Shown one piece after another: positions 11,121 through 37,538 of a stretch of 56,108 bases of DNA. The DNA lies in contig NZ_WIPH01000017.1 in NCBI RefSeq assembly GCF_009547075.1, positions 1 to 56,108 on the forward strand. The letters run 5' to 3'. Origin of the DNA: Gluconobacter aidae. GTDB lineage: Bacteria > Pseudomonadota > Alphaproteobacteria > Acetobacterales > Acetobacteraceae. How positions within the stretch are numbered: the stretch's first letter is position 1; every line of letters begins with the position of its first letter. Position numbers and translations under genes: made by a program. A model generated the notes under the pieces. That model did no database searches and had not been told where the DNA came from. It was given only the letters and a program-made list of their open reading frames with translations.

Positions 11121-12485
11121 ATGGAGCATTCTGCACAGACGCAGAGGGCGCAGGCCCCGTGCACACGGCGTGGCCGACGCCGAATCAGTGAGGCCATGCT
11201 GGCCGCACGCGACGAACTGACCACCCCCGTCCCGGCCGAGCCCGGCAAGCGGGATATGCTGAACATGCTGAAATCCCTCCGCGGTGTCCTGCCCGTCAGC
11301 CGGGGAGCAGCCTCAACGCTGATCATCATGGTGGAGAAAACCTCTCCAGACGCCTGGACGTCGCTTGAGACGCCCTTCATCTATGCGCACAACACCACGC
11401 TCATGTCCTGGACAGGACTGTCGCGCAGCACGCTGCAGCGGCACATCCGGGAACTAGCGGACGCGCGGCTTCTGGTGCCGCAGGACGGACGCAACGGACA
11501 GCGCGGCCGACGATGGCAGGCGGAGGAGGGCCAGACGCAGGTTGGCTTCAATCTGGCGTCCCTGCGATACCGCTGGCCGGATCTGCTGGCCCTGAGTGCG
11601 GAACAGCGGCGATTGCGCCAGCGCGTGTCCTTTCTCCGCGACAGCATTGCCAGCCTGAACGACACGGTCCGCGCCCAGGCCGAAGACCTCGGGCTTCAGA
11701 ATATCATGGAGCAAGCGACGGGAATCATGCGCAGCCGCCTGAGGACGGTGCAGCTCGGCACCCTGGAGGGGCTGTACCGGGAGATGCTGGCCCTTTCTGC
11801 GGCTCTGGCCGGGCACTGCGCCGAGCCTGAATCCGGCCTGGATCACGCGCCTGTGGAAAACGCTGTTTTTTCAACGTCGTATCCAGCAGAAATGAGGCCC
11901 ATGGGTCCTCAAAACGGGGCCCACTATACAGATACTAAAAACATTCAAACTTCTAAAAAAGTAGATCACGTAGCCGCCGATGGCGGCAATCGCATTGAAC
12001 ACATGCGGTGTGAAGGGCCGAGTTCCGGAACCGACCGTTCGAGCGTGTATGACCGGACAGCGTTGCGCGGGTTCAAGGGGACAGCGACGTTCTATCTCGA
12101 AATCTGCAGCAGTCTGCGGGATTTCTGTTCCACCGGTCGGCCGAGTGCCGAGCAGCTGATCGAGGCCGCTGAGTATCTGTCAGGGCAGGTGGGTGTAACC
12201 TGTCATGCCTGGTCGCAGGCCTGTGTCGTGCTCGGCCGATTGCAGGCGGCCGTCGCCGTGATCGTCATGGCGTCCAGGCTGGAGCGTGGTGCCGTCATCC
12301 GGTTCCGGGATGCCTATTTCCGCTCCCTGATCGAACGCGGGGCACGAAACACCCTGTTCCTTGATCGCAGCCTGTATGCGCTGCGGGATCATCGCACCCG
12401 GGAAGTGGGGATGTTGGCCGAGGCCGGCGTGTCACTGGCCGCCGTGGGCGTCGAGAGCCCAAAAACCCGGGCGGCGTGGATCTGA
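11121..12485 (+). CDS. repC: RepC-type plasmid replication initiator
   Basis: This 454-aa protein matches the RP-C replication initiator pattern of alphaproteobacterial plasmids. A central winged-helix-like region near 85-130 carries FIYAHNTTLMSWTGLSRSTL and a helix with RHIRELADARLLVPQDG. A long helical region follows at about 165-235. Family members bind the origin and recruit the replication machinery; the origin often lies within the repC gene itself. Here an AT-rich tract occurs inside the coding sequence at about 11922-11967. repA and repB partition genes are not in the window. Confidence 0.8.
   Translation: MEHSAQTQRAQAPCTRRGRRRISEAMLAARDELTTPVPAEPGKRDMLNMLKSLRGVLPVSRGAASTLIIMVEKTSPDAWTSLETPFIYAHNTTLMSWTGLSRSTLQRHIRELADARLLVPQDGRNGQRGRRWQAEEGQTQVGFNLASLRYRWPDLLALSAEQRRLRQRVSFLRDSIASLNDTVRAQAEDLGLQNIMEQATGIMRSRLRTVQLGTLEGLYREMLALSAALAGHCAEPESGLDHAPVENAVFSTSYPAEMRPMGPQNGAHYTDTKNIQTSKKVDHVAADGGNRIEHMRCEGPSSGTDRSSVYDRTALRGFKGTATFYLEICSSLRDFCSTGRPSAEQLIEAAEYLSGQVGVTCHAWSQACVVLGRLQAAVAVIVMASRLERGAVIRFRDAYFRSLIERGARNTLFLDRSLYALRDHRTREVGMLAEAGVSLAAVGVESPKTRAAWI
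11922..11967. other. AT-rich tract inside repC, candidate origin
   Basis: The stretch from actatacagatactaaaa through attcaaacttctaaaaaag is strongly AT-rich inside an otherwise GC-rich gene. In RepC replicons the origin maps to such a tract within repC. A DnaA-like word (tgtggaaaa) occurs about 70 bases upstream. Confidence 0.5.
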
Positions 12486-12929: not shown

Positions 12930-14213
12930 GGAGGGATCGAAAAACCGTTTGTTGATGTGCTTGGCTGATAATTTCAGGCTTTTGTCGATTTGATTGACGG
13001 TTTTTGCGATGGTCTCCGCTCCGCGTTTTGAGCAGATTGAGGGCTGTCCTCCGCGGGATGACTACGCGTTCAATCTTTCGAGGAAGAGGAAGCGGCGCAT
13101 ATTGTAGACGATATTGGCGAGCCCGATCCTCATGCTGGCCCGGGTGATACCGACAGTTCGGATGAATAGACCCATTTGCGATTTCTGATCGGCAAAGACG
13201 TGCTCGACGCGGGATCGGATCATCGACTTCCCTGCATTAGATCGCTGGATATGCCGGGGCATCCGTTTGAGATGCGGTTTTTTGCGATGAACCTTGGAGA
13301 CAAAGCCCTGCTTTTCCATGAAGTCTTCGTTGGCTTTTGAGCGATAGGCCGTGTCAGCCCAAACGCTTGTGGCCGTATTGGTTTTATCCAGCAGCCCCTC
13401 TCTCAACCGCGCGCCATCATTGGCGGCTGCATGCGTTGTTTTCCATTTCCGGATGAACCGGTATTTCCGATCGATAGAGACGTGCGATTTATAGCCAAAG
13501 AACGGAATGGCGAGATCCGTTGTGGGGATTGTTCCGTCATCCTGCCGTTTTGCTTTCGTGAACTTCAGCGTCCAGCGCGCATGGCGATCCTTGTGCGACA
13601 GCTTTGACGGCTTATCCTGCCAGTCTTCGGGAATACGTCCTGCCCGGAGGTCCGCTTTCTCAGCATTCGTATTGCGCTGCTTTGGAGCGGCTACCAATGT
13701 TGCATCCAGAATCTGGCCCGACATCGGCAGATAGCCCGCGTTACGCAGGGTTGTATCAAAGCGATTGAACAGACCCTCGATCGCTCCCACCTGCGTCAGG
13801 CGCTCACGGAACAGCCAGAGTGTTTTGGCATCAGGAACACGATCTGAAAGCCCCAGCCCAAGGAAGCGCATGAACGACAGGCGATCGTTGATCAGATATT
13901 CCGTCCGTTCATCGGACAAATTGTTGAGCGTCTGGATCACCAGGATCTTGAACATCAGCAGCGGATCAAATGGCGGTCGCCCGCCTTTGCTTCCGTCGGA
14001 ATACGCCAGTGCCTTCTCCAGATCAGGGCGAAACACTTCAAAATCCACAGTCCGGGAAAACGCTTCGAGCTGATCGCCAAGCCCGCTCAACCGGGCCAGC
14101 CGCTCTTCAACATCAAAAAATCCCGCCTGCTTCATCTTCCATTCCCTCAATCAATGCAGGAAAAATGGAATCACACAGGAACCTTCAAAACCAGAGGGTT
14201 TTTCGAACCCTCC
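12930..14213 (-). mobile_element. IS5-family element, copy A (complete)
   Basis: Ends are ggagggatcgaaaaacc at 12930 and, inverted, ggagggttcgaaaaaccctc ending at 14213. These ends recur in copies at 38453-39741 and 50455-51746. The transposase inside is intact. The right end abuts a partial copy of the same element. I could not identify a clean target duplication. Confidence 0.9.
13062..14135 (-). CDS. IS5-family transposase, copy A
   Basis: This 357-aa protein starts at MKQAGFFDVEERLAR. It has the N-terminal helix-rich domain with GGRPPFDPLLMFKILV (about 52-67), then the DDE domain: the first Asp in GQILDATLVAAPKQ, the second in VWADTAYRSKANEDF, and the Glu in RSRVEHVFADQK. The layout corresponds to the IS5 subgroup proper (related to E. 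coli IS5), distinct from the IS427-type elements in this window. All catalytic residues are present, so copy A is a plausible source of the other copies. Confidence 0.95.
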   Translation of the reverse strand: MKQAGFFDVEERLARLSGLGDQLEAFSRTVDFEVFRPDLEKALAYSDGSKGGRPPFDPLLMFKILVIQTLNNLSDERTEYLINDRLSFMRFLGLGLSDRVPDAKTLWLFRERLTQVGAIEGLFNRFDTTLRNAGYLPMSGQILDATLVAAPKQRNTNAEKADLRAGRIPEDWQDKPSKLSHKDRHARWTLKFTKAKRQDDGTIPTTDLAIPFFGYKSHVSIDRKYRFIRKWKTTHAAANDGARLREGLLDKTNTATSVWADTAYRSKANEDFMEKQGFVSKVHRKKPHLKRMPRHIQRSNAGKSMIRSRVEHVFADQKSQMGLFIRTVGITRASMRIGLANIVYNMRRFLFLERLNA

Positions 14214-15447: not shown

Positions 15448-16344
15448 ATGTTTCCCGGCGCATTAAAAGTTTTTTTTGAAGTTGTTCAGGCTGGCTCGAT
15501 CCGAAAGGCTAGCGACGCGATGGGAGTTTCACCCTCTTCCGTTTCCCGACAGGTCGCCGTCTTCGAACGCCAGATGGGGACAAAGCTGATTAAACGTGGC
15601 CCTGGTGGTATTAGTCTCACCCATGCCGGCCAGCTTGCAGCGGCTTATGCGCGCAGTGTCGTGCTCGAGTTCGATGCCCTCAAGGCCGATCTTGACGATA
15701 TGCGTGGGAGCCGGCGGCGGCTGATCAGGATCGCAACGGTCGAGAGCGTCGTGGCTTCTGGTCCGTGTCAGGCCATAGCCGACTTCCGCAGACAGTTTGA
15801 CGATGTGACGTTCCGCCTGACGATGATGCCCGCGCCTCAGGTCGTGGAGGCAGTGAAAAAGGATCTGTGCGAGATCGGTCTTGCCATGAACCCTCGCCCG
15901 GACCCCACAGTCAGGACACTAGGTATCATTCCCGAACCCATCGTCCTCGCTGTGCCGGAGGGGCATCGCTTCCGGGACAGGTCATCGATCAGCCTTGCCG
16001 AAGCAATCTCCGGAGAAGTGGTGACGCCAGACGACAGTTTCGGGATCTGGAGGATCCTCGACCGGGCTTTGCGAGAAGCCGGTTTGTCCATAAGGCCGGC
16101 CATGATCGCAAACAGCTTCGAAGCACTTCGGGATTATGCACGGATGAGCGGATGCGGGGCCATCCTGCCGTCACGCGCTGCCAGCAGGGCGGGTGAACCC
16201 ACAACGCTCGTTCCCATTCCGATCGAGAGCGAGCCACTCATGTCGGGCGCGGTGCATGTCATCGCTAATGGCGAACGGCGGATGCCCCGCATTCTGACCC
16301 TGTTTGCGGACGTGCTTGTGAAAAGCATGCCGCTCTCGACATGA
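15448..16344 (+). CDS. LysR-family transcriptional regulator
   Basis: This 298-aa protein has the LysR N-terminal helix-turn-helix at about 3-62 (FFEVVQAGSIRKASDAMGVS, then SVSRQVAVFERQMG) and a periplasmic-binding-like effector domain from about 90. The gene ends six bases before the end of the oppositely oriented aspartate-dehydrogenase-like gene, so they are tail to tail. LysR proteins often control neighbouring catabolic genes. A natural inference is control of the locus at 16.3-26.3 kb, with an amino acid or peptide-derived ligand. Confidence 0.95.
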   Translation: MFPGALKVFFEVVQAGSIRKASDAMGVSPSSVSRQVAVFERQMGTKLIKRGPGGISLTHAGQLAAAYARSVVLEFDALKADLDDMRGSRRRLIRIATVESVVASGPCQAIADFRRQFDDVTFRLTMMPAPQVVEAVKKDLCEIGLAMNPRPDPTVRTLGIIPEPIVLAVPEGHRFRDRSSISLAEAISGEVVTPDDSFGIWRILDRALREAGLSIRPAMIANSFEALRDYARMSGCGAILPSRAASRAGEPTTLVPIPIESEPLMSGAVHVIANGERRMPRILTLFADVLVKSMPLST

Positions 16345-16350
16345 CGGCGC

Positions 16351-17223
16351 TCAGATGAACCGTATCTCCGCCGTCTGATTGGCGAGGGCTGAGAGAACAC
16401 TGGCCCCCACAATGGCCGATGTCTTTGGATTGTCCTGGGCCGCGCGTCCCTGAACCGTCACGTTGAGCGTCCCGAGCGGGCCGCTGGCATCAATCGTGCC
16501 GATATTCTCGGTGATATGCGGATCCGCAATCAGGATAATCCGCGTTGCGTCAAGACCGACACCCGCAAATGCGACGGCCGCCGCCAGATTCGCGTTTTGT
16601 GGAAACTGGCGCGCTGCTTCCCGGGCACTTCCTTCAAAGATCGTCAGTGGCTCCGTGACGGTGCTCAGGTCATGACGGGTGGCTGCAACCGTACCGGCCC
16701 AGGCGTGAACCGGCTTGCGCGAGGTATAGGTCACCTGTGCATTCTGGTGACGTGTCAGCGCCAGCAATCCGTCGAACCCTGCCAGCGCCCCGCAGGGCAG
16801 CAAAATCCGGCCACCACCTTGCAGCGCAGCGCGACATAGCCTGTCCGACAGAGCATCATCGGCCAGCGCCCCGACGGACAGGAGATACAGGGAACGGCCC
16901 TGCTCCAGCAGGTCGGGTCCAAGAGAGGCGACGGCGGCGTGCCCGGCTGCTTCCACGACGATATCCGTCGGCATGGCGAGAAAGTCTTCAGGCTTGGAGA
17001 ATATCCGGGTTGCGGGACCGCATCCTGCCGGACGATCGGACAACGCCCGTCGCGCGAGGAGTGAGCGAAGCTCATACTCCTGACCGATCGTCTGCCAGTG
17101 TTCGACGACGTGCCGTGCAATGGCGCCGATTCCAATCATGCCAACCGTCTTCAAGACTTCCGCCCTTTTTTCCTGATGAGGCGCTTTCCTGAAACGCGTC
17201 CTATTTTCTGTAAGCAGCATCAT
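16351..17223 (-). CDS. L-aspartate-dehydrogenase-like NAD(P)-dependent enzyme
   Basis: The product carries an N-terminal dinucleotide-binding motif MIGIGAIARHV (about 29-39) and the family signature NPKTSAIVGASVLSALAN near the C-terminus. Other conserved blocks are LLPCGALAGFDGL and the N-L-A-A-A-V-A-F-A-G stretch. Characterised relatives deaminate L-aspartate reversibly to oxaloacetate or make iminoaspartate for NAD synthesis; relatives with shifted specificity exist. The ATG at 17223 directly follows the permease stop, so the two are co-transcribed. At 290 aa it is about 25 residues longer than usual, so a start further in is possible. No NAD biosynthesis genes are near, which favours a catabolic deamination role here. 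Confidence 0.85.
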   Translation of the reverse strand: MMLLTENRTRFRKAPHQEKRAEVLKTVGMIGIGAIARHVVEHWQTIGQEYELRSLLARRALSDRPAGCGPATRIFSKPEDFLAMPTDIVVEAAGHAAVASLGPDLLEQGRSLYLLSVGALADDALSDRLCRAALQGGGRILLPCGALAGFDGLLALTRHQNAQVTYTSRKPVHAWAGTVAATRHDLSTVTEPLTIFEGSAREAARQFPQNANLAAAVAFAGVGLDATRIILIADPHITENIGTIDASGPLGTLNVTVQGRAAQDNPKTSAIVGASVLSALANQTAEIRFI

Positions 17224-18528
17224 TCACACCTGTGGAATACGTCGCCGAAAGCGCCAGACGATCATGCCGACCAGCCCCCATACGGCGAGGACCGCATAAG
17301 GACGCCAGTCGCTGACCGTACCGAGAATGGCGATCAGAAGTGCCGAGACGATTGCAAGTGTCCCGACAACGGATACGGTTTGCGGACGCGGCCGGAAGCC
17401 GGACTGAACATTGGACATCATTCCGCTTCTTGCCGCCCTGATGGCGCAGACACTGTTCGTGGCGTATTTCAGCATCGTTGGGATGTTGACGGCCAGGAAC
17501 AGAAACAACAAGTCGTTCGGCAGGAAAGCACCAATGATGCTGAGAACGAACACCACCGTCATGGCGACGTGCGGCGTCTGCCAGCGAGGATGAATGGTCC
17601 CCAGACTGGCTGGCAACACTCCCGAACGCCCCATCGCGAAGAGGAACCTGCTGAAGATCAGGAAAACCCCGTTCAGCGAGGTGACGATGGAGATCGTCGC
17701 CGCCAACCCGATGAAGAAACCGGCCTTGTCTCCAAGGAAGACCCGCGCCGCATCCAGCAGGGGAGCCCGGCTCGTTGCAAGAGCAGCCCCTTCAACGCCG
17801 ATTGTCGTCAACGCCACTACCACATAGACGCCCAGTACGATCGCAATCGCGATCGCCAGGCCCGGCGCGATGACCCGGCCCACGTTACGGATTTCCTCCC
17901 CCATCTCGGCTGCGAACTCGATCCCGGTAAACAGGCCAACCAGCACAGGGACAGCGAGCAGGACGCCGTGAAATCCCTGCGGCGCGAAAGGCTGAAAATG
18001 TCCGACCGTCATATGACGACAGGCCAGAAGTGCGAAAAGCGACAGCAGGACAACGAGCCCCGTCGTCAGCCACGCCTGGACCCGGGCGGCATTGCCCGCA
18101 CCGCGGATATTGGCGAGATAGAGCACCGAAAAAAGGCCGATCATCAGGGACCGGTCCGAGAGATGGACGGGCAGGACCGGGACGACATATCGCGCCAGAA
18201 CGGCACCATGCTGAACAATCGCGGCAACACTGCCGACGATCCGCAGCCAGGCGATCGCGAACCCCATGCGTGCGCCCAGAAAACGGGTCGGCCAGACAAA
18301 GGAAGCACCGCTCGCAGGCGAGACGGACGACAGATAGGCATAGAGAAAGGCGAAGAGCCCCATTGGAACCGCTGCGATGACAAGCGACACCAGAAGCGCT
18401 GGTCCCGCGATGGATGCCGCAGGACCGAGAACGCCGAAAATGGAGACACCGAGGGACGACCCCACGCCAATTGCGACGATATGCCGCATCCGGATGGATT
18501 GTCTGAGATGAGAGCCGCTCATGACCAC
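17224..18528 (-). CDS. APC-superfamily amino acid permease
   Basis: The 434-aa protein has about twelve hydrophobic segments and the APC N-terminal pattern GVGSSLGVSIFGVLGPAAS (about 21-39), followed by an ASGASFVWPTRFLG segment near 72-85. It is a cytoplasmic-membrane transporter for amino acids or amines. Its gene lies 36 bases downstream of the TonB-dependent receptor gene and is contiguous with the aspartate-dehydrogenase-like gene. The likely flow is outer membrane receptor, then permease, then deamination. The exact substrate is not predictable. Confidence 0.9.
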   Translation of the reverse strand: MVMSGSHLRQSIRMRHIVAIGVGSSLGVSIFGVLGPAASIAGPALLVSLVIAAVPMGLFAFLYAYLSSVSPASGASFVWPTRFLGARMGFAIAWLRIVGSVAAIVQHGAVLARYVVPVLPVHLSDRSLMIGLFSVLYLANIRGAGNAARVQAWLTTGLVVLLSLFALLACRHMTVGHFQPFAPQGFHGVLLAVPVLVGLFTGIEFAAEMGEEIRNVGRVIAPGLAIAIAIVLGVYVVVALTTIGVEGAALATSRAPLLDAARVFLGDKAGFFIGLAATISIVTSLNGVFLIFSRFLFAMGRSGVLPASLGTIHPRWQTPHVAMTVVFVLSIIGAFLPNDLLFLFLAVNIPTMLKYATNSVCAIRAARSGMMSNVQSGFRPRPQTVSVVGTLAIVSALLIAILGTVSDWRPYAVLAVWGLVGMIVWRFRRRIPQV

Positions 18529-18564
18529 CCCATCCCGTAACGCGGCGCCATAAGGAAACAGACC

Positions 18565-21447
18565 CTAGAAATTGCGCTGAACCTGCAGGAAGAAATAGCG
18601 CCCGTAAATAAGCGATCCATAGACACCGGTTGCCGTATTGTAGGCCCCATCGGGGACGAAAGGCGGGTTCTTCGCAAAGACGTTGTTGATCCCTGTCGTG
18701 AAGTTCCAGGGACCGGCCGTGTACTGCGCGGTAATGTCATGGGAGAAGATCCCCGGCACCTTGCAATACGCGTAGACACTGCAACTGACGTTATTGGTCC
18801 CGTCAGAGTAATGCATTCCGCCGATGAAATTCATCATATACGTCAGAGAGAAGTTCCTGTGGCGCCATCCAACAGTGGCATAGTCGCGCGCGCGGGGCTG
18901 CCCGGTATCATTCTGGTAGAGGAGCTTGCCGGCGTAATCATATTGCGGACCGCCGGGATAATTCTGCTGCTTGTAGGAGACGAGCCACTGAAAATTATTG
19001 GATAGCGTCAACAGGTCATCATGCGTGATGTGGATGCGATAGTTGAGATCAAAGTCAACGCCGCTCGTCTGCATGGCACCGAGGTTTTCATAGAGATCGT
19101 AAACCGTCGAAAGCTGACCGGCAGCGGTGCGCGGACTCACATACTGGCACTGTCCGGGCGCGGCCCCCGTGTAGCAGCCGTCCATGACATATTGCAGCGG
19201 CGTCTGGCTGATGGCGTTACTGACATGATAGTGCCAGAACTCACCGGAGACCGTCAGATTGGGGATGACGCGCGGCGTGATGATGGTTCCGAACGTGTAG
19301 GTCCGCGCTTCCTCCGGCTGGAGGCTGCGATTGCCCCCATAAACAGTCTCCACCGTGTTGGCGTTGGTCATCGAGAAGTTGTTGACGTTGATGCCCTGAG
19401 CCGCACAGCGGGCCGTGACGGCGCTGGCATACGCGCCATAGGAGGACGCCTGCGCGCAGGGATCTTCGCCCTGGGTTTGCGCCACGTTCTGGCCGCCATA
19501 GAGTTCGTTGACGTTCGGCTGTCTGAAGGAGGTTCCCAGCGTGCCCCGGAAGGCGATGTCCCGTGTCGGCGCCCAGTAGAGGCCGACCTTCCAGTTTTCC
19601 GTGTTGCCGAAGGTGTTGTAGTGTGACCAGCGCCCCTGCGCATCCAGACTGAGCTGCTTCGCATACGGCGCATCTTCCAGAAGGGAAAGCTTGCCTTCCA
19701 GATAAGCGGACGTGGAGTTGAAACCGCCGCCCGTATACTGGGCGCTGCTTCCGGCGAGAACACCGGCGGCCTGCAGGGAGTCCGGCTTGTAGGATGCCTG
19801 TTCGCTCAGATGTTCCACACCGAACGCAATGCCCAGCTTTCCCCCGTGGCGGTAGGGCATCGTGACAACATTGGATTTCGAGACACGCGCGTTGAAATCA
19901 CGCATCTGGTAATTGTAGTAACTATGGGAGGTGTGAAAGATATAGCTCTGCGCCGACTGCCCCAGTGGCATGAACGGGTTGATCAGCGAACATCCACCGG
20001 CCGCCGAGCAGACACCCGGATCGTAGACAGCGCCACTGTTACTATCCATCGGGTTGAGCTGACGGACTCCAAGACTGTTGAGTACGTTCTGATAGTTGAC
20101 GAGGTTCGTGGTGGAGGTCTCCTGGGTGCTGTTTCCATAGCCCATGGAGATGTCGTACTTCCATCCCCCCAGAATATCTCCCTTGATGCCCGCGTTGACC
20201 TGCCAGGTATCATTGTTGGCAATGTATTCGCGGCCGCCGCCCTCGTTGAAACGCCTGAGAAGCGTCGCGTCCTCGCCCCATACATTATAGGGACTGCCAG
20301 AGGGCAATATCAGGCTTGAGAGCAGATTCGACGGATAGACACTGCCGGTGACGGCCTGCCCGGCCATATTCTGCGTGGCGGATCGATGGCTGTAATTCGC
20401 GTTGACATAGGCCGTCAGGTGATCGGTCACATCGTAATGCGCATCACCCCTGAGATTGGCGGTCTGCAGGTAGTAGCTGAGCGACTGTAGATTGGAAAAA
20501 CGATCGTTCTCCGCCCGTGTATAGTCGGAGAACGTTCCGTTTCCATTGGAAATGACATCCGCCGAGTCCGTGATGGCGCGACCATAGGGCGTGACCGAAC
20601 TCCCGAAGGAAGGGGCATGCCCGAGCAGCGGATCGCTGTTCCACGAGTTTGTGGCCCAGGAGCGGGACCTCTGCGAAACTCCACCCTGGGTCATATACTG
20701 ACCGAACACGCTGACATTGCCGCGCCCCTGGTCGAAATTGAAACCCTTGAATCCCGAAATCTTGCCGGTCCGCGCATCTCCCTGTCCGGCAATGGCGCCG
20801 CGGATATCAATGCCCCCAGTGTCCACGTTGTGCTTGAGCTTGATGTTGATGACGCCCGATACGGCATCCGCACCATACAGTTCTGAGCCACCATCTTTCA
20901 GGATTTCGACGGACTCGATCGTATCAATCGCGATCGTATTGAGATCGACACAGCCAGGCGTCGTTGCGACCTGACGCTTGCCATCGATCAGCACCAGGGC
21001 ACGATTGGACCCGAGGTTTCTGATATCGGGACAGGACTCCCCCGAACCGCCGTTCGGTGTGGTGTTGTACGTCCCCTGCGACCCCATGGACGGAAGGCGC
21101 TGGAGGTAATCGCCAAGTGTGACGGCAGATGTCCGCTGAATGTCCCGGCTGCTGATGATCTGAACCGGATTGGAACTCTCCGCCCTGCCCGACGCCAGGG
21201 CGCTGCCCACCACAACGATGTCCTCGCTCTTCGGCGACAACGGAACCCGCTGCAACTCAGCGCTTTTCGAAGGTCGGGACGGCCCGCTAGGCGCAGCAGT
21301 GCCGTGCTGTTGCACGAACCGCACCGGCTTTGCGGCCGCGTTCGCTGAATGGCGGGTATGGGTCTCTTCAGCATGAGCCCACGTAGTAAGACACAGCCCG
21401 CAGGCCGTGGCGGACAGGAGCGACCGCCGTAGAATAAATCTCGCCAT
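18565..21447 (-). CDS. TonB-dependent outer membrane receptor
   Basis: The 960-aa protein has a signal peptide (about 1-26), a TonB-box-like DIVVVGS near 75-81, and a plug domain with LVLIDGKRQVATTPGCVDLN and IESVEILKDGGSELYGADAV. A 22-strand barrel would follow, ending in the aromatic Phe typical of outer membrane proteins (F-L-Q-V-Q-R-N-F). Cysteine pairs occur in the plug and the extracellular loops (for example around residues 475-485). The plug type resembles receptors for peptides and other organic substrates rather than classic siderophore receptors. It heads the leftward operon with the APC permease and deaminase. Confidence 0.95.
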   Translation of the reverse strand: MARFILRRSLLSATACGLCLTTWAHAEETHTRHSANAAAKPVRFVQQHGTAAPSGPSRPSKSAELQRVPLSPKSEDIVVVGSALASGRAESSNPVQIISSRDIQRTSAVTLGDYLQRLPSMGSQGTYNTTPNGGSGESCPDIRNLGSNRALVLIDGKRQVATTPGCVDLNTIAIDTIESVEILKDGGSELYGADAVSGVINIKLKHNVDTGGIDIRGAIAGQGDARTGKISGFKGFNFDQGRGNVSVFGQYMTQGGVSQRSRSWATNSWNSDPLLGHAPSFGSSVTPYGRAITDSADVISNGNGTFSDYTRAENDRFSNLQSLSYYLQTANLRGDAHYDVTDHLTAYVNANYSHRSATQNMAGQAVTGSVYPSNLLSSLILPSGSPYNVWGEDATLLRRFNEGGGREYIANNDTWQVNAGIKGDILGGWKYDISMGYGNSTQETSTTNLVNYQNVLNSLGVRQLNPMDSNSGAVYDPGVCSAAGGCSLINPFMPLGQSAQSYIFHTSHSYYNYQMRDFNARVSKSNVVTMPYRHGGKLGIAFGVEHLSEQASYKPDSLQAAGVLAGSSAQYTGGGFNSTSAYLEGKLSLLEDAPYAKQLSLDAQGRWSHYNTFGNTENWKVGLYWAPTRDIAFRGTLGTSFRQPNVNELYGGQNVAQTQGEDPCAQASSYGAYASAVTARCAAQGINVNNFSMTNANTVETVYGGNRSLQPEEARTYTFGTIITPRVIPNLTVSGEFWHYHVSNAISQTPLQYVMDGCYTGAAPGQCQYVSPRTAAGQLSTVYDLYENLGAMQTSGVDFDLNYRIHITHDDLLTLSNNFQWLVSYKQQNYPGGPQYDYAGKLLYQNDTGQPRARDYATVGWRHRNFSLTYMMNFIGGMHYSDGTNNVSCSVYAYCKVPGIFSHDITAQYTAGPWNFTTGINNVFAKNPPFVPDGAYNTATGVYGSLIYGRYFFLQVQRNF

Positions 21448-21605
21448 GACTTTTCTATGCCACCTTCACGGGTCGGGGGTATCGCAAATGACAGTCTGAA
21501 CCTTCCTGAGAGATTAGAACGAAGCCGTGTCGTTGCATGTTCGTATTATAAATCCCCGGTGTTGCGTTTTTTGCAATACCTTTGATCCGAGGAGCCAGCA
21601 ATCCT

Positions 21606-22727
21606 TCAACAGGTTCGCGACCTGATTATCGACAACAGGTCATGGAGCCTTTCAGTATCGCCGTCATCGTTCCACAGATGCCCTGAAAACCGCAGAATCC
21701 TGCCACGGATGCTCGCAGCAACGCCTGTTCTGGTCATGGCGTCCCGAATAAAGGGAAGATCGTCCACACCAACAGACAGGATATGAGACGGCTCGGCCCG
21801 GTTCCCGAATGGGATATCCGGATGCGCCGCGATCAGCGCCCGGTTCCGGCGCCCGAGTTCGTTCTCAATGACATCGACGCCGATTCCAGCAACAGTCCGC
21901 ACGCCCTCGCAGGCGATCGAGAGCTGGATGGGATTGAGGACCCCGCCTGCATCGAAACGCTGCCCGGCTCCTTTCCATCCCGTGGGATACCGTACATTAT
22001 CCGGGGCATCGAGCCAGCCTGGCTGTGTCTCCATCGAGGACAGGCGATCTTCGAGCGGGAGCGCATCCCGAAGCGCAGGCGCCACATAAAGGTAACTGAC
22101 CCCCATGGGGCCAAGAAGCCATTTATAGCCGGACAGGGCGACGATATCAGGCCGTATCGCTGCCAGATCAAGCCGACGCGCCCCTGCCGACTGCGTTGCG
22201 TCGATAACCAGTCTGGCTCCGACAGAGCGCGCGGCCCCGGCGATGCGTTCGAGATCAAGCGCCGCGCCATCGAGCCAATGGCACTGCGGCAGACAGAGAA
22301 CGGAAACGTCGTCATCAAGGCAATCGAGAACCGCCTGCGTCCAGTTTCCTTCACGAGGCGCGGGGATCTGCTCCAGTCTGACACCAGCCTCCGCGTTCAG
22401 GCGCTTCCAGGGCAGGATCTGGCTCGGATGTTCGCCTGCGAGTGCCAGTATCCGTCCCTCTTTCGGTGACAGCACCCGAGCGGCAAACGCCATGGCGTAG
22501 CTGGTTGACGGAACAATCGAAATTCCAGCCGCGTCCGCCCCAAGCATCTGCGCCACCTGTTTGCGCAGGGTGTCGGCAAGAGCATCCGCGCCACTGTTCA
22601 GCCAGGGGCGGCCACGGACGGCCATACCCGCCGCCGCCGCATCGAAGGCCGTTTTCGGCACGAGCCCCATATGGGCACAATCATAGTAGGCAAGAGACTC
22701 AGGAACGGAGATCAGATCGCGCATCAT
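21606..22727 (-). CDS. Class-V aminotransferase-fold PLP enzyme (isopenicillin-N-epimerase/NifS-like)
   Basis: This 373-aa protein has the class-V fold. ARLVIDATQSAGARRLDL (about 171-188) contains D176, which should pair with the pyridine nitrogen, and SGYKWLLGPMGVSYLYV (199-215) contains the PLP lysine K202. Relatives include isopenicillin N epimerase, selenocysteine lyase, cysteine desulfurase and kynureninase-like enzymes. No cysteine-desulfurase active-site Cys loop is evident. It is separated from the receptor gene by 158 bases and faces away from the ester hydrolase gene. It may racemise or cleave amino acids released by the two exported hydrolases. Confidence 0.85.
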   Translation of the reverse strand: MMRDLISVPESLAYYDCAHMGLVPKTAFDAAAAGMAVRGRPWLNSGADALADTLRKQVAQMLGADAAGISIVPSTSYAMAFAARVLSPKEGRILALAGEHPSQILPWKRLNAEAGVRLEQIPAPREGNWTQAVLDCLDDDVSVLCLPQCHWLDGAALDLERIAGAARSVGARLVIDATQSAGARRLDLAAIRPDIVALSGYKWLLGPMGVSYLYVAPALRDALPLEDRLSSMETQPGWLDAPDNVRYPTGWKGAGQRFDAGGVLNPIQLSIACEGVRTVAGIGVDVIENELGRRNRALIAAHPDIPFGNRAEPSHILSVGVDDLPFIRDAMTRTGVAASIRGRILRFSGHLWNDDGDTERLHDLLSIIRSRTC

Positions 22728-22885
22728 CGTATTGTCGCTGCCTGACGACAGAAGTCCACGTTCGAAAGTCGATGAGGGTGTTGCACAAAACGCATCATTG
22801 CGAACTCAAATTGATACTTGCTGGCCTGGACGGCGCGCTACGATAGTGACGTCCCTGTGATATCACCAAGATCGGATCTTCAGAT
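22728..22885. promoter_or_regulatory. Divergent promoter region of the hydrolase locus
   Basis: This 158-base gap separates the divergent PLP enzyme and ester hydrolase genes. A ttgctgg hexamer-like element followed after about 15 bases by tacgat (near 22819-22846) could serve the rightward gene. The LysR regulator at 15.4 kb would be a candidate to bind here. No clear palindrome is seen. Confidence 0.3.
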
Positions 22886-24772
22886 ATGCGAATGCACCAG
22901 CAGGCGCTCCTAGCCGCCGTGATAGCCACGGCCGCGGCCTCCATTCCCGCCATGGCCGCATCGCCGGATGCTGGAGACATCCCCGCGCATTTCGTACGTC
23001 CGATCGAACAGAACGATTATATCCGCCGCGAAGTCATGGTCCCCATGCGTGACGGCGTGAAACTCTACACTGTCATCGTCATTCCGAAGGCGGCCCATCG
23101 CGCCCCGATGGTTTTGACACGCACCCCCTATGACGCACATGACGAAGCGGCATCAAGCAACTCCCCCCTCATGTCCGAAGCCCTGTGGCCGGCCGATCGT
23201 GAGATGGTGGACGCAGGGTTCATACGCGTTTATCAGGACGTCAGAGGGAAGTTCCGCTCCGAGGGCACCTATGAGATGACCCGCCCTCCCATCGGTCCGC
23301 TCAACACGTCGAAAACGGATGACACGACCGATGCGTGGGATACGACGGACTGGCTTGTAAAGAACGTCCCACAAAGCAACGGCCGCGTTGGCATGATCGG
23401 GTCATCCTATGAAGGATGGACCGTCGTCATGGCGCTTCTGCACCCTCATCCCGCACTCAGGGCGGCAGTCCCGGAAAGCCCGATGGTCGATACCTGGATG
23501 GGCGATGACTCGTTCCATTACGGCGCCTTCAGGATCAAAAATCTGGATTTCCTCGCTTACGAGACGGAAGCCAAAACCAATGGTTCCGGCGTGCCTCGTC
23601 GGCAGTATGACGATTATTCGACATTCCTCGCGGCCGGTCCGGTTGCCGAATATGCCAGACGCGCCGGTTTCGGGCAGCTGCCCTGGTGGAACAAGATGCT
23701 GGCCCATCCGGCCTATGACGCCTTCTGGCAGGCTCAGGCCCTCGATCGGCTCATTGCCGAACGTCCTTCCGATGTTCCGACCTTGTGGGAGCAGGGCATG
23801 TGGGACCAGGAAGACATGTGGGGCGCCAATCACAGTTTCGCCGCGCTGAAAGCCGCAGGCCATGAAAGCAACAACTGGCTGGTGATCGGCCCATGGGCTC
23901 ATTCGCAGGTTAACAGAACGGGCTATAGCCTCGGACCATTTCAGTGGAGGGGCGACACATCGGAACAGTTCCGGGCCGAAATGGTCCTCCCCTTCTTCAA
24001 ACACTATCTGGAAGACGGCCCGGATCACGCTCTGTCACGCGTCACGTTCTACGACCCCTCCCTGAACCGCTGGGATCATCTTGCGGATTGGCCGCTGGCA
24101 CAGTCGACAACACCGCTATACCTCACGGCCGATAACGGGCTGTCGTTCGACCCTCCGTCCCAGTCCGGCTCGGACAGATATGTGTCAGACCCGTCAAAAC
24201 CTGTTCCGTTCGAACCGCGTCCGGTCAATCTCAGAGACAGGGATACCTGGAGGACGTGGCTGGTCAACGATCAGCGTTTTGTCGATGGTCGTCCCGACGT
24301 ACTGACCTATCAGACGCCCGTGCTGACCACGCCGGTCAAGCTGGCGGGTGCCCCTGTTGCGGATATCGTAGAGAGCATTTCAGGATCCGACGCCGATGTC
24401 GTCGTTAAGTTGATCGACGTGCTGCCGGGCGAAAATCCGGTTCAGCCGAAGCTTGGAGGATACCAGCTTTCGATCGCAACCGATATCCTGCGCGGACGGT
24501 ACCGAAAGAGCTTTTCCCATCCCGAGCCCATTCCCGCAGGCGTATCGCAGCATTACCGCTTTACCCTGCCCAACGTCGATTACACTTTCAAACCGGGGCA
24601 TCGGATCATGGTACAGATCCAGTCAACGCTGTTCCCGCTCTATGACCGCAATCCCCAGACCTTTGTGGCCAATCCTTACGACATCAAAAATAGCGATTAT
24701 CGCACAGCAACCATCACCGTGATGCATACGCCTCAGGAAGCAAGCGCTGTTTGGCTTCCTGTTGTCAAGTGA
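22886..24772 (+). CDS. Alpha-amino-acid ester hydrolase (CocE/NonD, S15-type)
   Basis: The 628-aa exported enzyme has a signal peptide (about 1-25), an alpha/beta hydrolase domain with GRVGMIGSSYEGWTVVMAL (167-185), a cap, and a C-terminal jelly roll from about 410. The triad is S174, D307, H339. The spacings between these residues (133 and 32) equal those of the Acetobacter turbidans enzyme (S205, D338, H370). The acidic cluster that binds the substrate alpha-amino group is also present as D208, E309 and D310. This argues for true alpha-amino-acid ester hydrolase or beta-lactam aminoacyl transferase activity rather than a general esterase. The S10 carboxypeptidase follows 17 bases downstream. 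Confidence 0.93.
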   Translation: MRMHQQALLAAVIATAAASIPAMAASPDAGDIPAHFVRPIEQNDYIRREVMVPMRDGVKLYTVIVIPKAAHRAPMVLTRTPYDAHDEAASSNSPLMSEALWPADREMVDAGFIRVYQDVRGKFRSEGTYEMTRPPIGPLNTSKTDDTTDAWDTTDWLVKNVPQSNGRVGMIGSSYEGWTVVMALLHPHPALRAAVPESPMVDTWMGDDSFHYGAFRIKNLDFLAYETEAKTNGSGVPRRQYDDYSTFLAAGPVAEYARRAGFGQLPWWNKMLAHPAYDAFWQAQALDRLIAERPSDVPTLWEQGMWDQEDMWGANHSFAALKAAGHESNNWLVIGPWAHSQVNRTGYSLGPFQWRGDTSEQFRAEMVLPFFKHYLEDGPDHALSRVTFYDPSLNRWDHLADWPLAQSTTPLYLTADNGLSFDPPSQSGSDRYVSDPSKPVPFEPRPVNLRDRDTWRTWLVNDQRFVDGRPDVLTYQTPVLTTPVKLAGAPVADIVESISGSDADVVVKLIDVLPGENPVQPKLGGYQLSIATDILRGRYRKSFSHPEPIPAGVSQHYRFTLPNVDYTFKPGHRIMVQIQSTLFPLYDRNPQTFVANPYDIKNSDYRTATITVMHTPQEASAVWLPVVK

Positions 24773-24789
24773 AGGTCAGGATCCGAAAT

Positions 24790-26337
24790 ATGAAATCCGC
24801 ATATAACGGCCACATCGTCAGGCGCGCATCATGGGCGATAGCCGCCGCATTGGGTGGAGCACTGGCATCGCACGCCGTGGCTGCCCCTGCCAGAGACGAA
24901 AAACAGCCCGTCGTCAATGTCGAGCAGGCCCCTTTCAGTTCCACAACGGATCATCACGGGGTCTTTCACGGAAGATCCCTGAATTATCGGGCAACCGCAT
25001 CCCAACTGGATATCAAGGATGCCAAAGGCAATCCTGAAGCCCGGATATTTTCCGTGGCCTATACGGAAACAGCGGCCTCAAACTCGGAATCCCATACGCG
25101 GCCGGTCACTTTTCTTTATAATGGTGGGCCGGGAAGTGCCTCATTCTGGATTCATATGGGGGCATTCGGACCAAAAATCCTGCCCTACAACGCCATGTCG
25201 CCCAACGCCCCCGTCGCGCCGGGTCATGAATCGGTCGACAACCCGGACGCGCTTCTTGATGTCACCGATATCGTCTTCATTGACCCCGTAGGGACCGGCT
25301 ACAGTCACGCCCTGGGAACGTATCACGACGCGGATTTCTATACGATCACGAAGGACGCGGCCTCTGTCTCAGACTTTATCCGGACATGGCTGACCATCAA
25401 CAAACGATGGGACTCTCCGCGTTTCATTGGCGGCGAATCTTACGGCACACTGCGTTCGGCGATGATCCTCGCCGCCCAGAAATGGATGGCGTATAACGGT
25501 GTCATCCTGATCTCCCAGGGACTGGACTGGGGGACCGTGATCATGCCCCCGGGCTATGACCTCGGATACACGCTTTTTCTGCCAACATACGCCGCGACCG
25601 CCTGGTATCATCATAAGTTAGCCACGAATGGTGATGACCTCCAGACAACCGTCAGCAAGGCAGAAGCGTTCGCCTCCACCGACTATGCGGCGGCTCTGGC
25701 AAAGGGCGCCTTCATTGATGCGAACCAAACACGACAGGTCGCAGAAAAACTCGCCGCGATTACGGGGATTCCGGCGGATGTCTGGGTCGCGCAGCATCTT
25801 CGGATTGATCCTGACTTCTTTCGCAGACACCTGCTCGACCGAGAAAACCTCCGGATAGGGCGGTTCGATACCCGTTTCACAATTCCGGTTTCCAGCGCAT
25901 ACGACCCAAGCGACGAAGCCGATCCGTCACTGGATGGCGAAGCCGCGGCTTATAGCAACGCCATGCGACAATATCTCGTGCAGGATCTCGCCGTACCAGG
26001 AACAGAGACGTATGAACCTTTGAGCAGCATGACCTCGGAATCTCCGTGGACCTACGATCTTACCAACGGGGCCTATGTAAACCCCTCGGTCCTGATCGGT
26101 GAGGCGATGCGTGAAAACCGGCAAATGACGCTTTTCGTTGCATCCGGCTTTTATGACTCCTCTTCACCGGTTTATTCGGCAAAATACAATATCGGTCACT
26201 CCGGCGTTGATCTAAAAAGAACAACATTCACTTTTTACCCCACAGGGCACATGATGTACGTTGACCCGGCCTCCAGACAGCATCTTCTGGACGATATCCG
26301 TCTATACATTCGCTCCACACTTTCAGGACAACGTTGA
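24790..26337 (+). CDS. Exported S10-family serine carboxypeptidase
   Basis: The ATG at 24790 is chosen because it starts a typical signal peptide (about 1-32, ending A-V-A-A). The 515-aa product carries the oxyanion-hole block LYNGGPGSASFW (109-120), the nucleophile in GGESYGTLRS (S217), and later D456 in GFYDSSSP and H487 in YPTGHMMY, a complete S10 triad. S10 enzymes remove C-terminal residues at acidic pH, which fits an acetic acid bacterium. It is co-oriented with and only 17 bases from the ester hydrolase gene. Together they would break down an extracytoplasmic peptide or amino-acid conjugate. Confidence 0.93.
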   Translation: MKSAYNGHIVRRASWAIAAALGGALASHAVAAPARDEKQPVVNVEQAPFSSTTDHHGVFHGRSLNYRATASQLDIKDAKGNPEARIFSVAYTETAASNSESHTRPVTFLYNGGPGSASFWIHMGAFGPKILPYNAMSPNAPVAPGHESVDNPDALLDVTDIVFIDPVGTGYSHALGTYHDADFYTITKDAASVSDFIRTWLTINKRWDSPRFIGGESYGTLRSAMILAAQKWMAYNGVILISQGLDWGTVIMPPGYDLGYTLFLPTYAATAWYHHKLATNGDDLQTTVSKAEAFASTDYAAALAKGAFIDANQTRQVAEKLAAITGIPADVWVAQHLRIDPDFFRRHLLDRENLRIGRFDTRFTIPVSSAYDPSDEADPSLDGEAAAYSNAMRQYLVQDLAVPGTETYEPLSSMTSESPWTYDLTNGAYVNPSVLIGEAMRENRQMTLFVASGFYDSSSPVYSAKYNIGHSGVDLKRTTFTFYPTGHMMYVDPASRQHLLDDIRLYIRSTLSGQR

Positions 26338-28293: not shown

Positions 28294-28721
28294 AAGGGTT
28301 CGAAAAACCCTCTGGTTTTAAGCCGCTCTCTGTGATTCCATTTCTCCTGCATTGATTGAGGGAATGGAAGATGAAGCAGCTGGGTTTCTTTGATGTTGAA
28401 GAACGGCTTGCCCGGTTGAGCGGGCTTGGTGATCAGCTCGAAACATTTTCCCGGACTGTGGATTTTGAAATGTTTCGTCCTGATCTGGAGAAGACTCTGG
28501 CCTATTCAGATGGAAGCAAGGGCGGGCGACCGCCGTTTGATCCCGTGTTGATGTTCAAGATCCTGGTGATCCAGACCTTGAACAATTTGTCTGATGAACG
28601 GACGGAATATCTGATCAATGATCGCCTCTCCTTTATACGTTTCCTTGGTCTGGGGCTTTCAGATCGGGTGCCTAATGCCAAAACACTCTGGCTGTTTCGC
28701 GAGCGTCTGACCCAGGCTGGT
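28294..28721 (+). mobile_element. IS5-family element, 5' portion only (copy E)
   Basis: The left end (gggttcgaaaaaccctctgg), leader and transposase codons from MKQLGFFDVEERL to L-F-R-E-R-L-T-Q-A-G match the intact copies. The match breaks at about 28721. The rest of the transposase, including all three catalytic positions, is absent. The piece is in the same orientation as copies B and C. Confidence 0.9.
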
Positions 28722-28931
28722 GATCGGGCTGACTTCATAAACGTGATGCTCGTCCCAGGAGACGAACACATGCGTCCGCCCATTTTCGAAGACGGTATGC
28801 AGCGTTCCCGGGACAATCCCTCGGGTTTTCTGCATCAAACGCGCTGACATGAACTGACCAACAGCCTCTTTCTGCTGCTCAGTCAGGCTCTCATACGTGC
28901 AGGGGGCGGGATGGATCGGTTCACCAGTCAC
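28721..28931 (-). pseudogene. Truncated unknown gene interrupted by IS5-family copy E
   Basis: On the minus strand a GTG at 28931 starts MTGEPIHPAPCTYESLTEQQ and continues with MSARLMQKTRGIVPGTLHTV and F-E-N-G-R-T-H-V-F-V-S-W-D-E-H to the IS5 junction. The start overlaps the stop of an upstream minus-strand frame in a GTGA arrangement, as in an operon. I do not recognise the family. The gene lost its 3' end to the IS junction. Confidence 0.45.
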
Positions 28932-29435: not shown

Positions 29436-29521
29436 GAGACGCGTTTCGTGAAGGTGCCAGATACGGGAGAAAATCCCTGAAAGAGCGTAGTCCCCTTTAT
29501 GGGGGCCGGATTTTGTACCTG

Positions 29522-30448
29522 ATGGGGCCTCTTGTGGCGGCCAATGCTCTGGCATGGCTTCTAACGTTTACTCTGTTCCACGCAAACACCCTCCTGCTGG
29601 GCGCCGCAGTCCTCTCATACGGGCTGGGCCTGCGTCACGCGCTGGATGCAGACCATATCGCCGTCATCGATAACGTCACGCGCGCCGCCCTGCGCGAAAA
29701 CCGCGAGGCACGCGCGGCCGGACTGTTCTTCTCCCTTGGCCACTCCACGATCGTCTGTCTGGCAACGCTCGTGATCGTCCTCGCGGGCCAGTATTACCGC
29801 ACGCAGATCGATGCTTTTGCGGCGCAGGGCGGCCTGTTTGGAACATGGATCTCCGTCCTGTTCCTGAGCGTCATCGCCACCCTCAACGCTACAACCCTTC
29901 ATGACCTGTGGCGCAGACGGCGCGACGCAGAAACTACCCACTCCGAAATGCCACCCCGAGGCCTCTCCCGACTGCTCGCCCCGGTCCTACGTCAAGTCTC
30001 CGTCAGTTGGCACCTTTATCCGGTCGGGTTTCTCTTCGGCCTGGGCTTCGATACTGCCTCGGAAATCAGCCTTCTGGGCATATCCATCGTCCAGACCCAG
30101 CACGGCCTGCCTATCTGGCAAATCATGATCTTTCCGCTGCTCTTCACCGCCGGAATGGCCCTGCTGGACACCGCCGACAGCGTCCTGATGCACGGCCTGT
30201 ACCGAAGGGCAGGGCGGAGGATGAACTGGAATCTAGGCCTGACCGCCGTCTCCGTTCTGCTGGCGCTCGCGATTGCCGCAATTGAACTGGTGACCCTCCT
30301 TGCGGACCATCTGCCGGGGCTGGAAACGCTCACCTCTCTGGCCAGCCTGCTTTCCAATCATTTTGAAATGATCGGCGCTGCTGTCTTCTGCGCTTCCGTC
30401 TTCGGATGGCTCCTGCTCCGTTCCGGCCGCGAAGAGCTTGCATCATGA
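29522..30448 (+). CDS. NiCoT-family nickel/cobalt permease
   Basis: The ATG at 29522 gives 308 aa; an in-frame TTG nine bases upstream is possible. The family signature HALDADHIAVIDN (HX4DH type, about residues 40-52) lies in the second membrane segment. Further signatures are FSLGHSTIV and FGLGFDTASEI. Eight hydrophobic segments are expected. It imports Ni2+ across the cytoplasmic membrane. The stop overlaps the ureD start (ATGA), so nickel uptake is tied to urease maturation. Confidence 0.93.
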   Translation: MGPLVAANALAWLLTFTLFHANTLLLGAAVLSYGLGLRHALDADHIAVIDNVTRAALRENREARAAGLFFSLGHSTIVCLATLVIVLAGQYYRTQIDAFAAQGGLFGTWISVLFLSVIATLNATTLHDLWRRRRDAETTHSEMPPRGLSRLLAPVLRQVSVSWHLYPVGFLFGLGFDTASEISLLGISIVQTQHGLPIWQIMIFPLLFTAGMALLDTADSVLMHGLYRRAGRRMNWNLGLTAVSVLLALAIAAIELVTLLADHLPGLETLTSLASLLSNHFEMIGAAVFCASVFGWLLLRSGREELAS

Positions 30449-31272
30449 CTACGACAGCCCTTCAGCGTGCCCGGGGCTGGTTCGGTCTGACGGCAAAACT
30501 CCGCGACGGACAGAGCGTGCGCGACGAACTCGAGCAGGGCGGATGTTGCCGCCTCCTGTTCCCGCGCGTGGACGACGCGTCTCTGGAAGCCGTTACCGTC
30601 AATATCTCCGGCGGTATCGCTGGCGGAGACCGGATTGAAGGCCGCATCGCTTGTGCACCGGACACGGAGCTGCTGGTCACATCGCAGGCCGCGGAACGTA
30701 TCTACCGTGCCCGCGCCAGCGATACATCGGCCGAAATCCTCACCTCCTGCCACATCGCGGTCAGGGCCAGACTGGACTGGCTGCCCCACGGCACGATCTT
30801 CTTCGATGGCAGCCAGCTCCGCCGACACATGACCGTGGACATGGATGCTTCGTCCAGATTTCTCTTCCTTGAAAGCCGGATGTTCGGCCGCACCGGATCC
30901 GGCGAAATCCTGCAGACACTGGCTCTGCGGGACCGGCTGACAATCCGGCGGGATGGTCGCCTGGTTCTGGAAGATCTCCTACGGCTGGAAAGCGACGACA
31001 TGTCCACACTGATGGCCCGGAAAGCCGTGAGCGCGGACCAGCTTGCGGTCGCCACGCTGGTTCTGGTCTCACCGCTCGCGGAAACGTACCTCGACACCGT
31101 GCGGGACGTGCTGGACACGATCGCGCCGCACGAGTTTGCAGCATCGGCGTGGAATGGCATGCTGGTTATTCGCGGGGTGGCGTCAGGTGGCTGGTTGCTG
31201 GAAAAGACGATCAGACAGATCCTGCCGGTCCTGCGGGACGGGCGCCCCATGCCGGCCACATGGCGGTCATGA
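30445..31272 (+). CDS. ureD: Urease accessory protein UreD
   Basis: The 275-aa protein has the UreD/UreH scaffold pattern: [20 protein letters not shown] near the N-terminus, then [14 protein letters not shown] (about 52-65), then [12 protein letters not shown], and [16 protein letters not shown] in the middle. UreD binds the apo-urease and, with UreF and UreG, guides nickel to the active site. The start at 30445 overlaps the nickel permease stop by four bases. The ureA gene follows 25 bases after the stop. Length matches the family. Confidence 0.95.
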
Positions 31273-31297
31273 CACAGAGTTCGTAACGGAGCAGGAC

Positions 31298-31600
31298 ATG
31301 AAACTTACCCCCCGGGAAAAGGACAAGCTGCTGGTGGCGATGGCGGCAAACGTCGCGCGTCGGCGGCTGGAACGCGGTGTCGTGCTTAATTATCCGGAAG
31401 CGATTGCCCTCATTACCGATCACGTTGTTGAGGGTGCTCGGGATGGCCGGAGTGTTGCTGAACTCATGGCCAGTGGGGGCCGTGTTCTGACACGCGAGCA
31501 GGTCATGCAGGGCGTGGCTGAAATGATTCACGATGTGCAGGTGGAAGCGACTTTCCCCGATGGCACGAAGCTGGTGACCGTTCATGACCCGATACGTTGA
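31298..31600 (+). CDS. ureA: Urease gamma subunit UreA
   Basis: This 100-aa protein starts [20 protein letters not shown], the characteristic gamma subunit N-terminus, followed by [20 protein letters not shown] and the conserved end [18 protein letters not shown] lies about 9 bases upstream of the ATG. It is a structural subunit of the three-subunit bacterial urease. Its end overlaps the ureB start by 17 bases, which couples translation. Confidence 0.97.
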
Positions 31601-37458: not shown

Positions 37459-37538
37459 ATCGATATACTCCGGAAAGGCAATAAAAATAAAATGGCCATG
37501 GCTTCGCGGTCCGTGTGAATTGGAATACTTATTTACCA

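Follow-up and report, generated by a model that had tools for sequence, protein, structure and literature searches.

We analyzed a stretch of 56,108 bases from Gluconobacter aidae (the window), which is the entire contig NZ_WIPH01000017.1, and centered the work on seven genes at positions 15448 to 26337, among them one for an alpha-amino-acid ester hydrolase (AEH). The reading that we favor, and hold to be somewhat probable, is that these genes make up a mosaic locus for peptide scavenging, carried on a plasmid, into which the AEH was recruited as one periplasmic hydrolase. It is carried by the identities and active-site residues of the gene products, by the order and spacing of the genes, and by the recurrence of a permease-centered set elsewhere. 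We infer the substrate, the direction, the subcellular steps, the regulation, and both cytosolic reactions, which would run as follows. Oligopeptides or N-aminoacyl compounds would enter the periplasm through the TonB-dependent receptor. There, an exported S10 serine carboxypeptidase would shorten them from the C-terminus, and the AEH, also exported, would split N-terminal aminoacyl bonds (peptide or ester) with a free alpha-amino group. An APC-family permease would import the released amino acid or derivative. In the cytosol, a class-V pyridoxal phosphate (PLP) enzyme, be it a lyase, racemase, or transaminase, would act at the alpha or beta carbon, and an aspartate-dehydrogenase-like (AspDH-like) enzyme would handle an imine or a related product; a LysR-type protein may regulate the locus. 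AEHs have industrial uses and are studied for the synthesis of cephalosporins and penicillins. The locus points to peptide breakdown as a candidate for their natural job, which becomes testable once an AEH is linked with receptor, carboxypeptidase, and permease genes.

Organization of the locus

Seven open reading frames (ORFs), each without an internal stop, fill the locus (Table 1). A leftward unit (class-V PLP enzyme, TonB-dependent receptor, APC permease, and AspDH-like enzyme) and a rightward unit (AEH and S10) divide around one divergent region of 158 nucleotides (nt), and the LysR gene is convergent at the end. Gaps within the leftward unit measure 0 nt (AspDH/APC), 36 nt (APC/receptor), and 158 nt (receptor/class V); the others measure 158 nt (class V/AEH, divergent), 17 nt (AEH/S10, counted to ATG 24790), and 6 nt (LysR/AspDH, convergent). 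This spacing is operon-like. A promoter scan of the divergent region found no sigma-70-like consensus, and 0 of the 25 NCBIfam models shown for the LysR protein reached the cut-off. Signal peptides of the AEH, the S10 protein, and the receptor were judged by eye from the translations; none was seen by eye in the class-V enzyme, which looks cytosolic. The initial annotation, made from the letters alone, had named these seven genes, and by ORFs and profiles they are present, intact, tightly packed, and mostly as it called them. Its layout, with the AEH beside S10, divergent from the class-V side, and LysR at the end, matches the coordinates.

A permease-centered set recurs in other genomes

The APC gene belongs to a rare subfamily. 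It was found in its own genome only, both among 150 genomes of the family (1/150, E 1e-40) and among 150 genomes of the phylum; relatives numbered two others in 240 class genomes (E 1e-40) and two in 72,556 plasmid records (E 1e-30). Genus, family, and order searches around genomes G444 and G312 (2, 5, and 5 genomes) returned only the two APC matches already known. The four closest relatives are 38 to 44% identical to the window's permease, three from Alphaproteobacteria and one from Streptomyces, and the genes around them proved informative. On plasmid Mpl of Novosphingobium sp. PP1Y (locus L212), we found S10, class V, S10, a TonB-dependent receptor, aminotransferase I/II, S10, APC, OCD/mu-crystallin, and an M61-like gene. 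L238 (G312) holds S9, OCD, S10, APC, a sub-threshold PDZ protein, class V, two S10 genes, and a receptor, and L237 (G444) holds M61, class V, a receptor, APC, and S9. The locus on a plasmid of Streptomyces sp. NBC_01445 (L244) opens with an S10 gene cut by the end of the stretch, two ABC permeases, and an ATPase with oligopeptide-transporter C-terminal domains, and continues with SBP_bac_5, APC, class V, RidA, an amidohydrolase, S10, and M20.

Class V is thus present in 4/4 APC loci and S10 in three, the fourth having S9 and M61; a TonB-dependent receptor occurs in three, an oligopeptide ABC importer in one, and OCD/mu-crystallin in two. For comparison, we used the neighborhoods fetched for the other genes. 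The 56 AEH loci comprised all 11 loci of one search, 40 of 80 listed places (among them the second, chromosomal copy of this genome), and 5 of 15 plasmid records; the 31 class-V loci, 20 of 60 and 8 of 72 listed places plus 3 of 10 plasmid records; the 15 AspDH loci, 12 of more than 150 places plus 3 of 96 plasmid records; and the 21 receptor loci, 20 of 49 places plus 1 of 35 plasmid records. Several loci end at contig ends, L081 and L241 are near-identical, class-V loci L113 and L181, equal in length (220,129), probably represent a single plasmid, and L141 spans only 3 kb. Against this background, which was fetched for other genes and is not a random sample, class V was found in 4/4 APC loci versus 5/92 AEH, receptor, and AspDH loci (Fisher p 3.8e-5), and S10 in 3/4 versus 3/123 other loci (Fisher p 2.4e-4). 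The four-function set of APC, class V, peptidase, and importer lies within about 10 kb in L212, L238, and L244, where the peptidase is S10, and in L237, where it is S9; the set was defined from the window itself, and the test is its recurrence elsewhere.

The four loci share with the window an APC relative, a class-V PLP gene, and S10 or S9 peptidases, and L212, L238, and L237 also share the receptor; some carry extra M61, OCD, RidA, M20, or ABC genes. Taken as functions and not as orthologues, the set of the initial annotation thus largely recurs in these loci. The pathway drawn there is backed by this recurrence in its receptor, periplasmic peptidases, permease, and PLP enzyme, and is not backed in its amino-acid ester substrate. 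Found in Alphaproteobacteria and one Streptomyces, the permease-centered set is a handle for finding further loci.

The AEH and the S10 carboxypeptidase

AEHs are defined by a Ser-Asp-His triad, two oxyanion Tyr residues, and an Asp-Glu-Asp carboxylate cluster, according to the features listed in PMC3890990. We aligned the window's AEH to solved AEHs and used that residue list. The triad (Ser174, Asp307, and His339), the oxyanion pair (Tyr82 and Tyr175), and the carboxylate cluster (Asp208, Glu309, and Asp310) are all kept, and phmmer matched the solved enzymes of Acetobacter turbidans (2b4k/2b9v) and Xanthomonas (1mpx) at E about 1e-223, with weaker matches to 4pf1 (1e-168) and a cocaine esterase (1e-46). 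Judged from the alignment, the product is an alpha-amino-acid ester hydrolase by every defining residue. It is like the Acetobacter and Xanthomonas enzymes in its full-length match as well as in these residues, and differs from them in adjoining S10, receptor, and APC genes on a plasmid-like contig and in one further position. This is the Tyr reported to stack on the substrate's phenyl group, which PMC3890990 treats as functionally important and does not place in its list of characteristic AEH features; the window has Phe222 there (Tyr in 47/54 aligned rows, Phe in 2/54). A review (PMC6920838) mentions acyltransferases with 35 to 36% identity to an Acetobacter AEH and the belief that they act as dipeptidyl peptidases.

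A tree built from 54 rows pairs the window's AEH with Lichenicoccus (support 100/100, 69 to 71% identity). A second AEH of the same genome is chromosomal (L043, G000:C1:247091-248971), is 57% identical, and falls in a separate clade; the plasmid copy therefore did not arise by recent duplication of the chromosomal gene.

The probable start codon for S10 is ATG 24790 and not TTG 24751, since the alignment places the Met two residues after 24784. Its catalytic Ser219, Asp458, and His489 (numbering of A1) are invariant in 10/10 aligned rows. The protein had no match among PDB sequences at 1e-3, and its structure prediction (predicted local distance difference test score [pLDDT] of 41 from 4 alignment rows) was too poor to use.

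The two cytosolic enzymes

The AspDH-like protein scored 240.4 bits with the subfamily model NF009828 (cut-off 177), and the other seven listed models stayed below cut-off. Domain order and overall match are shared with NadX (2dc1 and 1j5p); the difference is that Gly242 aligns with His189 of 2dc1, which we take to be the catalytic residue. A literature search on this His189 found no paper. In an alignment of 34 rows, from which the window sequence and its duplicate (L083) were excluded for the count, the His is kept in 31 of the 32 other relatives and is Phe in one. With the catalytic His lost, "aspartate dehydrogenase" should not be taken as the function of this enzyme; the aspartate-dehydrogenase-like label of the initial annotation holds for the family model and fails at that residue. 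RidA (L244) and the OCD genes (L212 and L238) are a hint that the altered dehydrogenase might receive an imine or enamine product.

The class-V enzyme passed no NCBIfam cut-off (best SufS, 72.8 bits, cut-off 475), and no epimerase model was among the 16 NCBIfam models listed for it. The isopenicillin-N-epimerase label that it had first been given thus found no curated profile match. A fold search with its AlphaFold model (pLDDT 86.5) returned the general class-V (SufS/kynureninase) fold, with SufS first. We also considered a cysteine desulfurase. Such enzymes need an active-site Cys in the C-terminal loop, and the enzyme has Cys only at residues 17, 136, 145, 149, 273, and 373, with none between 274 and 372; lacking it at the expected position, the cysteine desulfurase assignment was rejected. 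The enzyme could be a lyase, a racemase, or a transaminase. The context of its relatives was rejected as a functional clue, as their neighborhoods contain the SerA family (10/31 loci) and the SerC family (8/31 loci), profile-named in L169 only, and give none that fits the window. Members of both families occur together with a class-V relative in L162, L163, L164, L167, L169, L170, L171, and L175.

These features bear on a different substrate. The locus might serve one specific non-peptide amino-acid conjugate, such as an ester or an N-aminoacyl metabolite, that is taken up and catabolized; the class-V enzyme and the altered dehydrogenase would then be specific for its amino acid. The loss of the His and the Phe222 of the AEH suggest an unusual substrate, the AEH keeps its carboxylate cluster for the alpha-amino group, and the APC permease is a dedicated one. 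We nonetheless consider this improbable: peptides are the substrate suggested by the S10 protein here and by the S10, S9, M61, or M20 peptidases of the recurring set.

AEH genes beside receptors and symporters elsewhere

Direct neighbors of AEH genes in some other Acetobacteraceae offered a second line of evidence. In L241 (a Komagataeibacter saccharivorans plasmid), L058, and L081, the AEH gene is divergent from a TonB-dependent receptor gene, with 869 to 872 nt between the longest ORFs, and is followed by a symporter gene of the POT family, an assignment that profiles confirmed in L241 and L058. The symporter is kept beside the AEH in L060 and L061, where the receptor is 7 kb away. In L072 (9150-13715) and L243 (5262-9833), a receptor gene lies upstream of the AEH gene on the same strand, at 7 and 79 nt; these pairs are likely operons in other Acetobacteraceae. 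L045 has a receptor 736 nt from the AEH and, some 4 kb off, an S10 gene, and L070 has an OCD gene just before the AEH. AEHs adjacent to a receptor or symporter are spread over several branches of the tree. Like the window, the K. saccharivorans unit (also L058 and L081) places an AEH next to both a TonB receptor and an importer; it differs in having POT in place of APC and, by profile, no S10, class V, or AspDH.

It is possible, and we propose it tentatively, that the natural role of AEHs is that of a periplasmic aminoacyl-hydrolase of TonB-dependent peptide-uptake loci. Four AEH branches (the window; L058/L081/L241; L072/L243; and L045) have members directly beside TonB receptors, and in the window the AEH would have joined a wider peptide-use set of APC permease, S10, class-V PLP enzyme, and altered dehydrogenase, on a plasmid for nitrogen scavenging with genes for arginase, urease, and nickel uptake. 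A literature search on AEHs with TonB found no paper, and searches for the wider AEH peptide-use set (receptor/epimerase/permease/peptidase and receptor/peptide uptake/carboxypeptidase) found no description of it. Separately, a plasmid of Sphingobium yanoikuyae (L246, 3319-10942) carries, by annotation, a sigma factor, a FecR-domain gene, a TonB-dependent receptor, and two S10 genes in succession, likely a receptor/S10 uptake locus.

The orthologous set does not travel together in the neighborhoods examined

To look for the partners themselves, we ran tblastn with the seven proteins, counting matches only above 60 bits for AEH loci and above 50 and 45 bits for class-V, AspDH, and receptor loci. 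Across 51 AEH neighborhoods, S10 was found in L044, L045, and L046 (one genus) and a receptor stretch in L045; lone matches were class V in L003, LysR in L053, and APC in L074. The neighborhoods of class-V, AspDH, and receptor relatives held no other partner by tblastn, except for the APC locus L212. Iterated profiles (those for POT and OCD each started from one seed) detected, in the 56 AEH loci, S10 in 3, class V in 2, a receptor in 10, POT in 5, APC in 1, and AspDH in 0. No AEH locus (0/56) holds APC, receptor, class V, and S10 jointly, contrary to the conserved neighborhood that had been proposed as support for the set.

We therefore rejected a conserved orthologous cluster, as the set occurs in none of the neighborhoods examined by tblastn and profiles; the plasmid collection held no DNA match to the whole locus. 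The divergent class V/AEH pair was likewise rejected as a conserved unit, its one look-alike (L067) having a distant class-V gene. The class-V gene near the AEH in L003 sits behind a NifU_N scaffold gene and so is probably of SufS type. Chromosomal-type AEH loci typically hold other genes, the ilvD family in 14/56 and the msrA family in 13/56 AEH loci (profile-named in L050 and L077), and 14 loci of this type showed no partner except a LysR-like gene in two (L053 and L059).

Weighing the readings

Several observations weigh against a joint peptide-scavenging locus. Joint action of the rightward (AEH-S10) and leftward units is the main point in doubt. Neither AEH nor AspDH occurs in the four APC loci (0/4 each). 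The class-V genes of these loci are of another branch, three being 21 to 27% identical to the window's and that of L238 25% over part of its length, which means that a function recurs and not an orthologue; two of their products look Tat-exported by eye, in contrast to the cytosolic-looking enzyme of the window. A distant APC gene (27%) is found in AEH locus L074 without class V, S10, or a receptor. In the AspDH-like enzyme, a catalytic residue is gone, and the comparison loci were not drawn at random. TonB-dependent receptors are also common: first-look candidates number 6 to 34 per genome of 2.2 to 3.6 Mb, so a receptor within 10 kb of an AEH (10/56) is about what chance gives, and our argument uses only direct adjacency and the POT-family symporter. 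Relatives of the window's receptor at 44 to 55% occur in 26/26 genus genomes (its own included), and its own genome has two more (C66 and C84); by sequence, the receptor is a member of a large paralogous family. Lastly, in Kozakia (L243), two genes of PF00144 (the Beta-lactamase family) are found close to the AEH gene. As this family holds class-C beta-lactamases and also esterases and D-peptidases, other AEH substrates are possible as well.

The Kozakia genes bring up the use or detoxification of beta-lactams or D-amino-acid peptides, in which the AEH would split alpha-amino beta-lactams or their kin and the PLP enzyme would take the released part. AEHs have indeed been investigated for the synthesis of alpha-amino beta-lactams, and docking has been done with ampicillin and cephalexin (PMC3890990). 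For the window we consider this very improbable: among its seven genes, to which this statement is limited (other loci were profiled in part), there is no beta-lactamase-type gene, the epimerase identity of the class-V enzyme is without curated profile support, and the phenyl-stacking Tyr of the AEH is Phe.

A more serious competitor, though still an unlikely one, is an accidental mosaic, in which a receptor-APC-AspDH-class V unit and an AEH-S10 unit were joined by insertion sequences (IS) and share no common pathway. The absence of the orthologous set from all neighborhoods examined fits such an origin, as do the transposase copies on both flanks and the branching of the AEH with Lichenicoccus, whose AEH locus holds none of the other genes. 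Tight, even spacing around a shared divergent region speaks against it, since the largest gap of 158 nt leaves no room for an IS. Moreover, S10 is part of the recurring APC/class-V set, which links the AEH-S10 unit to the other one. The flanking transposase copies are inverted, and IS elements may have mobilized the region. An intact composite transposon was rejected, as the two copies are 89% alike over 422 nt and the right ORF has 163 amino acids (aa) against 362 aa on the left.

Plasmid-like context and nitrogen genes

The RepC-like gene, the MobF relaxase, and several transposases make the contig plasmid-like (Table 1). Beyond the right transposase lie urease, nickel transport, and arginase genes. 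NicO and UreD were named by Pfam; NicO fell below its NCBIfam cut-off, UreD had no NCBIfam match at 1e-10, and UreF was not identified among the urease genes of the window. From the gene content, the proposed peptide locus, arginase, urease, and nickel uptake would fit a nitrogen-scavenging kit, in which peptides would yield arginine, arginase would turn it into urea, and urease would release ammonia. A literature search on urease plasmids in acetic acid bacteria turned up two papers, seemingly on other subjects.

Table 1. Features of the proposed peptide locus and of the surrounding contig
Feature	Coordinates	Strand	Evidence or remark
LysR-type regulator	15448..16344	+	PF00126, PF03466
Aspartate-dehydrogenase-like enzyme, Gly242 at presumed catalytic His position	16351..17223	-	PF03447, PF01958, NF009828
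APC-family amino acid permease, rare subfamily	17224..18528	-	PF13520, 99.6 bits
TonB-dependent receptor	18565..21447	-	Plug PF07715 and barrel PF00593, both above cut-off
Class-V fold PLP enzyme	21606..22727	-	PF00266
Divergent intergenic region, class-V/AEH, 158 nt	22728..22885	.	
AEH (S15/CocE hydrolase)	22886..24772	+	PF02129; TIGR00976, 244.5 bits, cut-off 66.3
S10 serine carboxypeptidase-like	24790..26337	+	PF00450, 34.5 bits, cut-off 21.9; no NCBIfam match
MobF relaxase/helicase	4808..8011	+	NF041492 above cut-off
RepC-type plasmid replication protein	11121..12485	+	PF03428, PF11800; NCBIfam RepC 129 bits, below cut-off of 150
Left flanking DDE transposase (DUF772 type)	13062..14150	-	Part is 89% inverted match to 28295-28716
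Right flanking, shorter copy of same transposase type	28295..28847	+	ORF 28356-28847, 163 aa vs 362 aa left
NicO nickel transporter and UreD, gamma, beta, alpha, UreE, UreG	29513..35415	+	Profiles
Arginase (RocF)	36535..37542	-	TIGR01229, 311.8 bits, cut-off 227.6

Full or broken transposase copies, apparently of one DUF772/DDE type (two profiled, the rest by eye), are located at 13062-14150, 14154-14621, 28356-28847, and 38530-39609. A YaaC-like protein (PF14175) is encoded at 41102-42442, in a part of the contig with lower GC content.

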